Shown: in pieces, positions 47,050-51,983 of the stretch
Layout: each line of letters begins with the position of its first letter
Position numbering within the stretch: the first letter of the stretch is position 1
DNA from: Mycobacterium sp. ACS1612
GTDB taxonomy: Bacteria; Actinomycetota; Actinomycetes; Mycobacteriales; Mycobacteriaceae
Direction of reading: 5' to 3'
DNA: 64,000 bases
Assembly: GCF_001667505.1 (NCBI RefSeq)
Contig: NZ_LZHZ01000001.1
Coordinates: 62,001 to 126,000, forward strand
Translations under genes and position numbers: made by a program
Notes under the pieces: generated by a model
Told to the model about the DNA's origin: nothing
The model's database searches: none
Seen by the model: only the letters and a program-made list of their open reading frames with translations

Positions 47050-48750
47050 ATGACTGCACCGGTCTCTACGCCCCGCAAACCCGTCTTGCTGACAGTCGAC
47101 GACGACCCCGCGGTCTCCCGCGCGGTCGCGCGCGACCTGCGCCGCCACTACGGCGACCGTTACCGCATCGTGCGCGCCGAAACGGGCCTGGAAGCCCTGG
47201 AAACCCTCAACGAACTGAAGCTGCGCGGCGACACCGTCGCCGTGTTCGTGGCCGACTACCGGATGCCGCAGATGAGCGGCATCGAGTTCCTCGAAGAGGC
47301 GATGGACATCTACCCGCTCGCCCGCCGCGTGCTGCTGACCGCGTACGCCGACACCCACGCCGCCATCGACGCGATCAACGTCGTCGACCTGGACCACTAC
47401 CTGCTCAAGCCGTGGGACCCGCCGGAGGAGAAGCTGTACCCGGTGATCGACGGCCTGCTCGAGGCGTGGCACGCCACCGGCGACCGCGCGATCCCGCACA
47501 CCAAGGTGATCGGCCACCGCTGGAACGAGCGGTCCTGGGAGGTGCGCCAGTTCCTGGCCCGTAACCAGCACTCGTTCCGCTCGTTCAATGCCGACGAACC
47601 CAAGGGCAAACAGCTGCTGGACGCGGCGGGCCTGGACGGCTTCCAGCTTCCCGTCGTGATCACCGAGCAGGGCGAGACACTCGTCGAACCCACCGACGCC
47701 GAACTGGCAGGGATGCTGGGCCTGTCGACCACCCCGTCGCTGGAGATGTACGAACTGGCGGTCATCGGCGGCGGCCCCGCAGGTTTGGCGGCCGCGGTGT
47801 ACGGCGCCTCGGAAGGCCTCAAGACCGTGCTCATCGAGGAGACCACCACCGGCGGGCAGGCCGGCCGCAGCTCCAGGATCGAGAACTACCTCGGTTTCGA
47901 GATGGGTATCTCGGGTGCGGAGTTGACGACGTCGGCGCGCCGGCAGGCCGAGCGGTTCGGCGCCGAGGTCATCACCACCCGCAAGGCCGTCGCGCTGCAC
48001 GCCGGGGACAGCGGCACCGCACGCACCATCGAGTTCGCGGACGGCAGCACCATCGCAGCGCAGGCGGTCATCCTCGCTACCGGCGTCTCCTACCGTCAAC
48101 TGCAGAACGTTCCCGGCTGTTGGGACGACCCCGACGACAACGCCTGCAACTACATCGGCCGGGGTGTGTACTACGGCGCCTCGGTGTCCGATTCCAGCGA
48201 GTGCGCGGGCGAGGACGTCTACATCGTCGGCGGCGCTAATTCGGCAGGCCAAGCGGCGATGTTCATGTCCCACTCCGCCAAACACGTGACGCTGCTGGTG
48301 CGTGGCCCGTCGCTGGAGGCGTCGATGTCCTACTACCTGATCCAGCAGATCGAGAAGAACGACAAGATCTCCGTCCGGGTGTGCACCGAGGTCGTCGACA
48401 CCATCGGCGAGGACGACCACCTGACCGGTCTGGTGCTGCACAACAAGCAGAGCGGCGAGAACGAAACGGTCAACTGTGACCGGCTGTGCTGCTTCATCGG
48501 CGCCGAGCCGCGCACGGACTGGCTCGACGTGGTGGCCAAGGACGACCACGGGTTCATCCTGTCCGGCCCAGACCTCAAGGACGTTTCCGGGTGGACGCTG
48601 GATCGCCCGCCGCACCACTTGGAAACAAGCGTGCCGGGTGTGTTTGTTGCAGGTGATGTGCGAGCCGAATCCGCCAAGCGGGTGGCAGCAGCCGTCGGCG
48701 AAGGGTCGATGGCGGTGATGTTGGTGCACCGCTACCTAGCGGAAACTTAG
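47050..48750 (+). CDS. Response regulator fused to glutaredoxin-like and thioredoxin-reductase-like domains, both without active-site cysteines
   Basis: A 566-residue protein. Residues 10-135 are a receiver domain with phospho-acceptor Asp69 (FVADYRMPQ), acidic pair in TVDDDP and Lys120. Residues about 150-225 look like a glutaredoxin fold ([22 protein letters not shown]), but the CxxC site is WNERSW. Residues 235-566 are a TrxR-like flavoprotein with FAD motif GGGPAGLA (240-247), pyridine-nucleotide motif VGGANSAGQ and the C-terminal [15 protein letters not shown]; the CATC disulfide position reads YGASVS. So it cannot reduce thioredoxin by the usual route. It is cognate to the kinase 13 bases downstream. 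RefSeq names relatives fused response regulator/thioredoxin-disulfide reductase. Confidence 0.88.
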
Positions 48751-48763
48751 GAAAGAAGTCGAC

Positions 48764-50254
48764 ATGGGCGAGACTGGAAGCAAATGCCTGCCTGACGAAC
48801 TGCGGACGCTGTTCCTGTTCGAGGCCCTGACCGACGAGCAGCTGCAGATGCTATGCGAAAACGGTCATATCGAGTCTTTCGAACCCGGCCCGATCGTCGT
48901 CGAAGGGGAACCGGCGACCTGCTTCTACGTCCTGCTCGATGGTGAGCTGATCATGTCCAAACGGTCGGCAGGCATGGACATCGTGACCGGACGCACCTCG
49001 CAGCGAGGCGTCTACTGCGGTGCGTGGTCGGCGTATGTGCCCGCCGAGGAACACCTATATGAAGCCTCGGTGCGGGTGACCAAGCCGTCGCGGTTCTTCG
49101 TACTCGACGCCGAAGCGTTCGCCACCTTCATGCGCAGCCAGTTCCCGATGGCGGTACATCTGCTCGAGGGACATATGGTCGGTGGCCTGCGCCAGCGTCA
49201 GATCATCGGACAGCGGGAGAAGCTGCTTGCGCTGGGCACCATCACCGCGGGTCTGACCCATCAGCTCAACAACCCGGCCGCCGCAATCTCCCGCGACGTG
49301 TCGAACCTGCGCGAGAACGTCGGCAAGATGCGTCACAAGCTGTCGATGCTCGCCGACGGTAAGTTCACGCCCGAGGCGCTGCGCGTGTTGGTGTCCATCC
49401 AGGACGAGGTGGCCGAGCAGGTAGCCAAGGCCAAGACCCACGAACTCAGTCCGCTGGAGACCTCTGACCGCGAGGACGAGATTGGCGACTGGCTGGAGGA
49501 CCACGGGATCGCCAGCGGCTGGGATTACGCGCCGACGTTCGTCGAGGCTGGACTCGACATCGACTGGCTGGAACGTGTTGTGGCGTCGATCGACGACGTC
49601 GACTGCTCAGCCACGTTGCAAAGCGCGATCGGCTGGCTGAAATACACCATCGACACGGAACTCTCTGTGAATCGGATTGCCGAAGCCAGTAAGCGCATTT
49701 CGGCACTGCTCGCAGGCACCAAGCAGTACTCGCAGATGGACCGGGCGCCGTATCAGTCCGCGGACATCCACGAGCTGTTGTGGAGCACGGTGATGATGTT
49801 CGGCGAGAAGGTCGGCAAGGAGGCGCCGATCAAGATCGTCAAGGACCTCGACAAGTCGATACCTGAATTGCTCTGCTACCCAGGCGATCTCAACCAGGTC
49901 TGGACGAACATCATCGACAACGCGATTCAGGCCATGGATGGCCACGGCACGCTGACGCTGCGCACCCGCCGGGAATCCGACGAGATGATCAGGGTCGAGA
50001 TCTGCGACGACGGCCCCGGTATCCCCGACGACATCATCGACCGCATCTTCACTCCGTTCTTCACCACCAAGCCGTTCGGCGAAGGCACCGGCCTTGGCCT
50101 CGACCTGGCCTGGCGCATCGTGGTGGAAAAGCATCGTGGCAATCTGCGCGTGGAGTCGCAGCCCGGCGAGACCAAGTTCATCGTGACGCTGCCACTGCAG
50201 GCGCCCGCACCGGAACTACCGACGCCGACGGAGCTTCCTGCCGGAGTGGAATAG
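48764..50254 (+). CDS. Sensor histidine kinase with cyclic-nucleotide-binding-like domain
   Basis: A 496-residue soluble kinase with no membrane segment. Residues 15-135 form a cNMP-binding/Crp-like sensor (LFLFEALTDEQLQMLCENGH, EGEPATCFYVLLDGEL). The phosphoacceptor His166 is in GLTHQLNNPAAA, a NtrB-like H-box. The catalytic domain has N-box NIIDNAIQAM and G-boxes DDGPGIPDD and GTGLGLDLAW. ATG 48764 follows AGGAAAG. It is 13 bases after the fused regulator, so they form a two-component pair sensing an intracellular ligand. Confidence 0.9.
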   Translation: MGETGSKCLPDELRTLFLFEALTDEQLQMLCENGHIESFEPGPIVVEGEPATCFYVLLDGELIMSKRSAGMDIVTGRTSQRGVYCGAWSAYVPAEEHLYEASVRVTKPSRFFVLDAEAFATFMRSQFPMAVHLLEGHMVGGLRQRQIIGQREKLLALGTITAGLTHQLNNPAAAISRDVSNLRENVGKMRHKLSMLADGKFTPEALRVLVSIQDEVAEQVAKAKTHELSPLETSDREDEIGDWLEDHGIASGWDYAPTFVEAGLDIDWLERVVASIDDVDCSATLQSAIGWLKYTIDTELSVNRIAEASKRISALLAGTKQYSQMDRAPYQSADIHELLWSTVMMFGEKVGKEAPIKIVKDLDKSIPELLCYPGDLNQVWTNIIDNAIQAMDGHGTLTLRTRRESDEMIRVEICDDGPGIPDDIIDRIFTPFFTTKPFGEGTGLGLDLAWRIVVEKHRGNLRVESQPGETKFIVTLPLQAPAPELPTPTELPAGVE

Positions 50255-50282: not shown

Positions 50283-51128
50283 ATGACGAAGCCCAATCTC
50301 GGCGCCTACGGCGTATTCGGCCACCACCAGCTTTGGCAACAACTCAGTCCGGCGCAACTCAAAGACATCGAAGCGCTCGGATACGGCGCGATCTGGGCGG
50401 GCGGGTCACCGGCGGCCGAGTTGGCTTGGGTGGAGCCACTTCTGGAGCCGACCACCACGCTGCAGGTCGCCACGGGCATTGTCAACATCTGGACGGCCGA
50501 CCCAGGACCGGTCGCCGAGTCCTACCACCGCATCGACACCGCCTACCCTGGTCGCTTCCTGTTGGGTATCGGCGTCGGCCACCCGGAGGCGGGCCACGAG
50601 TATCGCAAGCCCTACGACGCGCTGGTGGAGTACCTGGACAAGCTCGACGAGCACGGCGTGCCGAAGGACCGTCGGGTGGTCGCGGCGTTGGGACCCCAGG
50701 TCCTCAAGCTGTCCGCGCGCCGCGCCGCAGGCCCGCACCCGTATCTGACGACGCCCGAGCACACCGCGCAGGCCCGCGAACTGCTCGGCCCTGACGCGTT
50801 CATCGCACCAGAACACAAGGTCGTGTTGACCACCGACGCCGAGAAGGCGCGCGCCGTCGGCCGCAAGGCGCTCGAGATCTACCTCAACCTGACGAACTAC
50901 CTCAACAGCTGGAAACGTCTCGGGTTCAGTGATGAAGAGGTCGCGAAACCGGGTAGTGACCGTCTGGTGGACGCGGTCGTTGCCTACGGCACCGTCGACG
51001 CGATCGCGGCGCGACTGAAGGAGCACCTGGACGCGGGCGCTGACCATGTGCCGGTGCAGGTGTTGACGTCGCCGGACAAGCTGGTGCCTGCGCTCGCCGA
51101 ACTGGCCGGACCACTCGGACTGAAGTAA
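50283..51128 (+). CDS. LLM-class F420-dependent oxidoreductase (Rv3463-like)
   Basis: A 281-residue luciferase-like F420 enzyme: LGYGAIWAGGSPAAELAWVE, VATGIVNIWTADPGPVAESY, GIGVGHPEAGHEYRKPYDAL and the C-terminal GADHVPVQVL. Position after infA matches Rv3463. It is 28 bases after the kinase gene and may belong to the same transcript. The substrate is unknown. Confidence 0.88.
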   Translation: MTKPNLGAYGVFGHHQLWQQLSPAQLKDIEALGYGAIWAGGSPAAELAWVEPLLEPTTTLQVATGIVNIWTADPGPVAESYHRIDTAYPGRFLLGIGVGHPEAGHEYRKPYDALVEYLDKLDEHGVPKDRRVVAALGPQVLKLSARRAAGPHPYLTTPEHTAQARELLGPDAFIAPEHKVVLTTDAEKARAVGRKALEIYLNLTNYLNSWKRLGFSDEEVAKPGSDRLVDAVVAYGTVDAIAARLKEHLDAGADHVPVQVLTSPDKLVPALAELAGPLGLK

Positions 51129-51140
51129 GGGGAAATGGAC

Positions 51141-51983
51141 ATGACCGAACTCAAACCGGACCTGGGCCGCTACGGCGTCTGGACCTTCGGATCGCCGGGG
51201 CCGGAACAGGCCGCCGAGATCGAAAAACTCGGCTACGGCGCGCTGTGGGTCGGCGGTTCACCCAAGGGGGATCTGGCGTTCGTCGAGCCGATCCTGGATC
51301 AGACACAGACGCTGCAAGTGGCAACCGGCATCGTCAACATCTGGACAGCGGACGCCGGCGAGGTCGCCGAGTCGTATCACCGCATCGAGAAGGCGTTTCC
51401 GGGTCGCTTCCTGCTGGGTGTCGGGGTCGGCCACCCCGAACACACCCAGGAGTACCGCAAGCCCTACGACGCGCTGGTGGAGTATCTCGACGTGCTGGAC
51501 GCGAACAAGGTGCCGACCAGCCGCCGGGTGATCGCGGCGCTCGGCAAGAAGGTGCACGAGTTGGCCGCGAAGCGCAGCGCGGGCGCGCATCCCTACCTGA
51601 CGACGCCGGAACACACCGCGCTGGCACGCGAATGGATTGGGCCGACAGTGTATTTGGCGCCCGAGCACAAGGTGGTGCTGACCACGGACGCGGAGCAAGC
51701 CCGGGCGATCGGACGCGAGACCGTCGACTTTTATCTGAATCTGAGCAACTACCTGAACAATTGGAAGCGGCTCGGCTTCACCGACGAGGACATCGCAAAG
51801 CCGGGTAGCGACAAGCTGATCGACGCGGTGGTCGCGCACGGCAGCGCCGACGACATCGCCAAGCGGCTGAACGAACATTTGGAGGCCGGCGCGGATTCGG
51901 TGCTGATCCAGGTGCTCGGTGGACCGGACAAGCTGCTGCCGACACTGACGGAACTGGCGGGACCGCTCGGGCTGAAGGGCTGA
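51141..51983 (+). CDS. LLM-class F420-dependent oxidoreductase, tandem paralogue
   Basis: A 280-residue paralogue of the preceding gene, alike over its whole length (LGYGALWVGGSPKGDLAFVE, VATGIVNIWTADAGEVAESY, GVGVGHPEHTQEYRKPYDAL). GGGGAA lies six bases before ATG 51141, so I prefer it to ATG 51135, which would be too close. A tandem duplication; differences cluster in the segment before the first shared block and around residues 150-165, which may shape the substrate pocket. Confidence 0.88.
   Translation: MTELKPDLGRYGVWTFGSPGPEQAAEIEKLGYGALWVGGSPKGDLAFVEPILDQTQTLQVATGIVNIWTADAGEVAESYHRIEKAFPGRFLLGVGVGHPEHTQEYRKPYDALVEYLDVLDANKVPTSRRVIAALGKKVHELAAKRSAGAHPYLTTPEHTALAREWIGPTVYLAPEHKVVLTTDAEQARAIGRETVDFYLNLSNYLNNWKRLGFTDEDIAKPGSDKLIDAVVAHGSADDIAKRLNEHLEAGADSVLIQVLGGPDKLLPTLTELAGPLGLKG

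Follow-up and report, generated by a model that had tools for sequence, protein, structure and literature searches.

What can a response regulator do when it has no DNA-binding domain, and when the two redox folds joined to its receiver both lack a CxxC cysteine pair? The question is posed by two adjacent genes of Mycobacterium sp. ACS1612, which lie in a stretch of 64,000 nucleotides (the window: contig NZ_LZHZ01000001.1, positions 62,001 to 126,000 of the forward strand) and encode a regulator and a histidine kinase (Table 1). Both genes are intact, separated by 13 bp, and their reading frames lie where a preliminary description, made from the letters of the window alone, had placed them. 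As that description had it, a Pfam scan found no DNA-binding domain in either protein, and the kinase appears soluble: no stretch resembling a membrane segment occurs in either protein (the highest mean hydropathy over 19 residues is 1.35 in the regulator and 0.91 in the kinase). A non-transcriptional output is the likeliest reading for the predicted regulator, which is likely to act on its flavin enzyme directly instead of on a gene. Our best explanation, to which we give about an even chance, is that the adjacent kinase would phosphorylate Asp69 of the receiver, and that this would gate the flow of electrons from NAD(P)H to flavin adenine dinucleotide (FAD) and on to a non-disulfide acceptor.

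Among the best 120 of 8000 database matches, which begin at 98 % identity, those named by organism are from Mycobacterium, and the proteins are labelled either as thioredoxin reductase (NADPH) or as FAD-dependent oxidoreductase. The flavoprotein half shares with TrxB, the low-molecular-weight thioredoxin reductase, the FAD and NAD(P) folds and motifs, the IENY/F-GF and GDVR stretches, and the acid that follows the CxxC place, and it aligns with solved thioredoxin reductases over residues 234-563. Unlike TrxB, it has no CxxC: in the best alignment the two cysteines face Gly376 and Ser380 of the stretch GASVS, at the position that had been singled out beforehand, while the aspartate after them faces Asp381. 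Its score against the thioredoxin reductase model TIGR01292, 199.7 bits, is under the cut-off of 343.45, and a thioredoxin reductase that does have CATC is encoded elsewhere in the genome (L004; L numbers denote loci and G numbers genomes). A second thioredoxin-reductase-like protein of the genome (L005; G000:C26:14148-14906, - strand) also has no CxxC and reads GVSVSAKRDGDQF at the CATC place; in our tree it clusters with the canonical enzyme, apart from the receiver-flavoprotein family.

We compared the regulator with 112 relatives (32 Actinomycetota loci and 80 loci from genome contigs, the best 80 listed) and then with 10 more copies from actinobacteria that had initially been set aside, for a total of 122. 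A CxxC was found at neither place in any of them (0/112, then 0/10). Because neither motif occurs in any of the 122, we regard the absence as an old family trait and reject a recent or local loss of cysteines; the preliminary description was right that both places lack CxxC, but its word "removed" is misleading for what is a trait of the whole family. No conserved alternative cysteine was found in the flavoprotein: Cys385 is present in 68/112 only, and the other six cysteines of the window copy are each present in fewer than 20 % of 33 rows. By tree labels the family spans ten phyla (Actinomycetota, Chloroflexota, Cyanobacteriota, Acidobacteriota, Bacteroidota, Deinococcota, Gemmatimonadota, Ignavibacteriota, Balneolota and Thermomicrobiota), and by record titles it extends to proteobacterial metagenome-assembled genomes and one archaeal one. 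The absence of CxxC is real, and broader than a single sequence could reveal. The tree itself is unrooted, with the canonical enzymes on a long, weakly placed branch and one very distant row included. The archaeal case (L141, a Nitrososphaeraceae contig) encodes a regulator whose mycoredoxin-like domain is interrupted by a long insertion, followed by a kinase gene, and could be a binning error; a few regulator genes look interrupted (L102 in two pieces, G141 with 2 TGA, G220 with 1 TAA).

The segment between receiver and flavoprotein, which has no Pfam match, is mycoredoxin-like by sequence profile. A profile built from 10 aligned fragments (the window copy and nine relatives) matches the structure of mycoredoxin Rv3198A (2lqo) with E 1.1e-8 over 68 profile positions, and other glutaredoxins more weakly. 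Each of the nine relatives matches the NCBIfam mycoredoxin model (TIGR02200) with an E value no higher than 0.001 (lowest 1.1e-11), and Pfam Glutaredoxin is matched by 4/10 fragments at E 0.01 or better and by 6/10 at E up to 5. The glutaredoxin-like character proposed earlier is thus borne out by the family profile, though not by the window copy alone, whose middle segment matches neither the NCBIfam mycoredoxin model nor Pfam Glutaredoxin. The domain shares with mycoredoxin the proline of the fold, Pro201, which we take to be the cis-proline of the thioredoxin fold. It differs from mycoredoxin in being fused instead of free-standing and in having, at the CxxC place, NERS here (as first read) and SPxS in most of the family (Ser159 in 101/112, Pro160 in 69/112, Ser or Thr162 in 94/112); neither a CxxC nor a CxxS is present in the window copy, and a single cysteine somewhere in the eight-residue stretch at that place occurs in only 8/112. 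With Ser or Asn for Cys and the proline kept, this domain would link the receiver to the flavoprotein or provide a docking site between them.

In contrast to the cysteines, the motifs for FAD and pyridine nucleotide show little or no variation across the 112 relatives, in line with the earlier claim that they had been kept. Aspartate after the CxxC is the acid-base catalyst of E. coli thioredoxin reductase, and the facing residue 381 is Asp or Glu in 108/112 and in 10/10 further relatives. The near-invariance of the cofactor motifs, together with that of the acid at 381 and the proline at 201 (111/112), is what a working cofactor site would be expected to show. One way to use such a site is offered by YpdA, the bacillithiol reductase, which works without a resident CxxC and uses a cysteine in its FAD motif. 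The regulator could in the same manner reduce a small molecule or thiol, perhaps a low-molecular-weight disulfide, and it does match the YpdA model (E 9.2e-18), but with only 64 bits, far under the cut-off of 339.9, and the FAD-motif cysteine of YpdA is Ala here (GGGPAG). Genes that look like EgtB and EgtD, presumably for ergothioneine synthesis (read by eye, with no family search), lie 1.4-2.7 kb from the regulator in 4/112 loci (L115, L116, L134, L140), which would suit such an activity; all four, however, are from Bacteroidota, so that the linkage is confined to one phylum. We consider a YpdA-like reductase very improbable.

The other half of the argument concerns the receiver and its kinase. 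The phosphorylation pocket of the receiver is complete (Asp17, Asp18, Asp69, Thr97 and Lys120, by alignment columns), which agrees with the first view of an intact receiver with Asp69 and Lys120. The kinase has an HATPase_c domain and the H-box histidine, although HisKA (PF00512) reaches only 13.6 bits against a cut-off of 26.9; the histidine of LTHQLNNP is found in 78/81 kinases, and in the other 3, whose frames start at a contig end, the stretch is missing. A kinase gene lies within 2.5 kb of the regulator in 80/112 loci, and in 68 of these the two genes share a strand and are no more than 200 bp apart. It follows the regulator in 48 and precedes it in 28 (same strand), and is on the opposite strand in 4; gene order therefore varies across loci while linkage persists. 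Of 118 genomes of the genus, 74 encode the regulator, and all of these but one (73 genomes) encode the kinase as well; in the exception the contig ends ∼125 bp past the regulator. Two or three tandem kinases stand beside one regulator in seven genus genomes (G160, G164, G172, G182, G187, G197, G243) and in two other Actinomycetota loci (L048, L112).

The pocket follows the kinase: it is intact in 80/80 kinase-linked loci, as opposed to 14/32 loci without a kinase nearby. The difference is sharpest in the first Actinomycetota set of 32 loci, which was not selected by receiver pattern, where the pocket is intact in 16/16 kinase-linked loci and in 0/11 kinase-less loci of receiver type (the other 5 show no receiver in the alignment). 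With the 10 later copies included, the pocket is intact in 17/17 kinase-linked loci in which the sequence covers all of it and in 0/16 kinase-less loci of receiver type. Two of the later copies are kinase-linked: L186 has an intact pocket, and L185, cut at a contig end, is intact in its visible part. Kinase-less copies L187, L188 and L190-L192 have degenerate receivers, and two of the later copies have no receiver. Judged on their sequences, most kinase-less actinobacterial relatives have lost the phospho-pocket.

Several observations weigh against the phospho-gated reading. The 11 kinase-less relatives of the first set group in a single clade (100/98 support), so that the contrast largely reflects a single evolutionary event and is overstated by its Fisher value; in 3 of them (L057, L066, L067) Asp69 and Lys are retained and Thr97 is the sole difference. 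L189, which is truncated by the end of its contig and has no kinase in the available stretch, has intact visible pocket residues and goes against the rule, and of the 14 loci with an intact pocket and no nearby kinase, several are near contig ends and others are not. The conservation of Thr97 is partly inflated by construction, because the 80 loci from genome contigs were found with patterns that include LLTAYADT. Finally, three arginines bind NADPH in thioredoxin reductase, and only one of them is retained here in the alignment with that enzyme (Arg418; 110/112), so that either NADH or NADPH may be the preferred nucleotide.

Despite these points, phospho-gated transfer from NAD(P)H to FAD is the best fit, because the cofactor residues and the phospho-pocket are both conserved. 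From these patterns we infer phosphotransfer from kinase to receiver, FAD binding, NAD(P)H oxidation, and a change in rate upon phosphorylation. Alternatively, the protein could be a pseudo-enzyme scaffold in which both redox halves are structural and the receiver controls dimerisation or localisation. Such a scaffold could explain why two catalytic motifs are missing together throughout the family and why the receiver is degenerate too in most kinase-less Actinomycetota relatives, but not readily why many positions of the cofactor motifs are invariant (112/112) over at least ten phyla, and we judge it improbable. Two paralogues in the same genome, at G000:C60 (L002/L059 and L003/L060), consist of the same mycoredoxin-like and flavoprotein halves, likewise without CxxC, and differ in that a Pfam cNMP domain replaces the receiver; no kinase of this type was found in the 14 kb around each. 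Because both carry this domain before the same halves, it seems that inputs can be swapped at the front while the flavoprotein provides a shared output.

A different role for the flavoprotein is suggested by a gene that recurs near the system. A zf-UBP-like gene lies within 3.5 kb of the regulator in 27/112 loci, and within 200 bp in 14, as counted by similarity to four zf-UBP queries, with Pfam applied to a subset. Nine of the 27 pass Pfam (L043, L046, L050, L051, L053, L061, L062, L116, L145), one is split between frames and falls under the Pfam cut-off (L042), and the kinase of L051 carries such a domain at its own C-terminus. Across 149 Actinomycetota genomes, zf-UBP is present in 21/29 with the flavoprotein family (E 1e-60) versus 10/120 without it, a comparison uncorrected for kinship. 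These findings would suit a flavoprotein that is a sensor and not an enzyme: bound FAD and NAD(P)H would report the reducing power of the cell, and the output would be a protein contact, for example with the zf-UBP protein, set by phosphorylation and flavin state. The absence of CxxC in 122/122 relatives points the same way, as does the co-precipitation of Msmeg_1516, there called thioredoxin disulfide reductase, with gp145 of phage Wildcat (PMC7474061; papers are cited here by PMC number, from their accessible parts). However, a pure sensor would have less need of the acid beside the lost CxxC and of the NAD(P) site, both of which are conserved, and zf-UBP does not adjoin the pair in its own genome, where two copies lie on other contigs, nor was one seen near the 10 later actinobacterial copies. 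We consider the sensor unlikely. The two zf-UBP genes of the genome (L153:6695-7045 and L154:6200-6526) adjoin a cation-efflux-like and an antiporter-like gene (neighbours by eye). Among the papers listed in searches of open-licence literature, none was on a bacterial zf-UBP protein.

What the gated transfer of electrons would respond to would depend on the kinase. A working cNMP site has the ligand cassette motif GE...R-x-A. The cNMP-type sensor proposed for this kinase holds as a fold, above the Pfam cut-off (30.2 against 27.5 bits), but the cassette motif is not found: the stretch reads CGAWSAYVPAEEHLYEASV and looks degenerate in mycobacteria (by eye), and some kinases elsewhere have other front ends. 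A cNMP-like front is common (Pfam-checked in the window kinase, L048, L050, L051, L085, L115 and L122) and a cAMP-type cassette is visible by eye in some relatives, such as L073, L083 and L122, while others have PAS-like (L078, L098, L100) or receiver-like (L079, L104) fronts, also by eye. A second candidate input is a cysteine just before DEL..LFLFE, present in 18/18 genus kinases examined (drawn from 18 genomes out of the 73 that encode one). The window kinase and L039-L043 have it too, and nine kinases from cyanobacteria have a cysteine shifted by one residue (MLC or ALC). Only 21/81 kinase frames have a cysteine in that N-terminal stretch, a few of them ahead of the likely start Met, and it is therefore not a general trait of the kinase.

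This cysteine has a likely counterpart in M. smegmatis, where MSMEG_1516 is named thioredoxin reductase (a ∼60 kDa band) and MSMEG_1515 a sensor kinase; from the neighbouring locus numbers (rpsM 1521, rpoA 1524), the 60 kDa band and the position of the cysteine, we infer that they are orthologues of the regulator and the kinase. NaOCl raises the oxidised share of Cys5 in MSMEG_1515 from 13.1 to 48.5 %, and an mshC mutant shows 39.2 % even when unstressed (PMC5430705). The N-terminal cysteine may thus be a sensor in mycobacteria, and the mycobacterial input to the pair would be thiol oxidation at this residue, a ligand of the cNMP-like domain, or both. Taken furthest, the system would be a widespread, transcription-free redox switch: a flavoprotein free of CxxC from the start would be driven by a phosphorelay, with zf-UBP as a recurrent third component, and in mycobacteria the kinase, not the flavoprotein, would sense oxidant or loss of mycothiol through its N-terminal thiol, changing phosphorylation and NAD(P)H use; this fuller scheme we hold only tentatively, as doubtful but conceivable.

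The preliminary description had also suggested that the F420 enzymes encoded just downstream act together with the regulator. Since the first of the two genes begins 28 bp after the kinase, co-transcription is possible. However, among 32 loci compared, F420 genes adjoin the pair only in the three from the same genus. In addition, such a gene is present in 74/74 genus genomes with the regulator and in 34/44 without it, and in 11/12 loci from regulator-less genomes one or two F420 genes stand directly between infA and rmlB with the pair missing (in the twelfth, infA is missing from the available stretch). We therefore reject the partnership: the F420 enzymes are probably not partners of the pair, which behaves as a separable unit because the F420 locus persists without it. 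When the open reading frames around the loci were clustered, most of the groups turned out to be antisense, and short-chain dehydrogenase-like (11 loci) and LtrA-like (5 loci) neighbours, named by eye, looked incidental.

Table 1. Features of the regulator-kinase pair and of the genes that follow it (window positions; residues numbered within each protein).
Feature	Position	Strand	Description	Basis
Regulator gene	47050..48750	+	566 aa; receiver, mycoredoxin-like domain, thioredoxin-reductase-like flavoprotein	open reading frame, Pfam, relatives
Receiver domain	47077..47469	+	∼residues 10-140	Pfam Response_reg (PF00072), residues 14-125, 49 bits, cut-off 30.2
Asp69	47254..47256	+	predicted phosphorylation site	pocket columns of alignment
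Mycoredoxin/glutaredoxin-like domain	47497..47727	+	∼residues 150-226	profile match to 2lqo
NERS at CxxC place	47524..47535	+	residues 159-162; family consensus SPxS	alignment
Pro201	47650..47652	+	taken as cis-proline	Pro in 111/112
Thioredoxin-reductase-like flavoprotein domain	47743..48747	+	residues 232-566	Pfam Pyr_redox_2, residues 235-552, 112 bits
GGGPAG	47767..47784	+	FAD-binding; residues 240-245	G240, G242 in 112/112; G245 in 111/112
GASVS at thioredoxin reductase CxxC place	48175..48189	+	residues 376-380	alignment to solved thioredoxin reductases
Asp381	48190..48192	+	faces Asp after CxxC of thioredoxin reductase	thioredoxin reductase alignment
GGANSA	48229..48246	+	pyridine-nucleotide motif; residues 394-399	G394, N397, S398, A399 in 112/112
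Kinase gene	48764..50254	+	496 aa histidine kinase, no membrane stretch	open reading frame, Pfam, hydropathy
Cys8 of kinase	48785..48787	+	likely counterpart of MSMEG_1515 Cys5	Cys position in genus kinases
cNMP-binding-like domain of kinase	48893..49138	+	residues 44-125	Pfam cNMP_binding, 30.2 bits, cut-off 27.5
His166 of kinase	49259..49261	+	predicted phosphoacceptor in LTHQLNNP	His in 78/81 kinases
HATPase_c of kinase	49886..50200	+	residues 375-479	Pfam PF02518, 87.5 bits, cut-off 26.4
Two F420-dependent LLM oxidoreductase genes	50283..51983 (50283-51128, 51135-51983)	+	neighbours, judged outside the system	TIGR03620, above cut-off

The domain architecture is already on record. Regulators that join a receiver to a thioredoxin-reductase-like domain, the same combination as here, have been described as REC-thioredoxin reductase proteins, and a "Mycobacterium-like combination" of this kind has been named and reported in two Heimdallarchaeota organisms (PMC5847659). 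In its accessible part, that account makes no mention of missing cysteines, of a mycoredoxin-like domain, of a partner kinase or of a zf-UBP gene. Other relatives of thioredoxin reductase, DDOR and FFTR, have a CxxC (PMC9025218). A change in MSMEG_1513, a neighbour of the M. smegmatis pair by number, is reported in two compound-resistant isolates (PMC6386362). In the open-licence literature searched, we found no functional account of the receiver-flavoprotein family.

Proteins of this family are often filed as thioredoxin reductases, and they are unlikely to be such enzymes. MSMEG_1516, listed as a thioredoxin reductase in proteomic and ClpC1 studies (PMC10745673, PMC10433963) and as a thioredoxin disulfide reductase in the phage work (PMC7474061), is apparently the M. 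smegmatis form of this regulator, and thioredoxin is unlikely to be its substrate; its label is carried into the phage-interaction, proteomic and ClpC1 studies alike. The link to zf-UBP provides a lead on a bacterial zinc-finger family. Response regulators commonly act via DNA: a direct connection from a phosphorelay to a flavoenzyme, present in at least ten phyla, would, if true, allow what is sensed to reach redox metabolism quickly.

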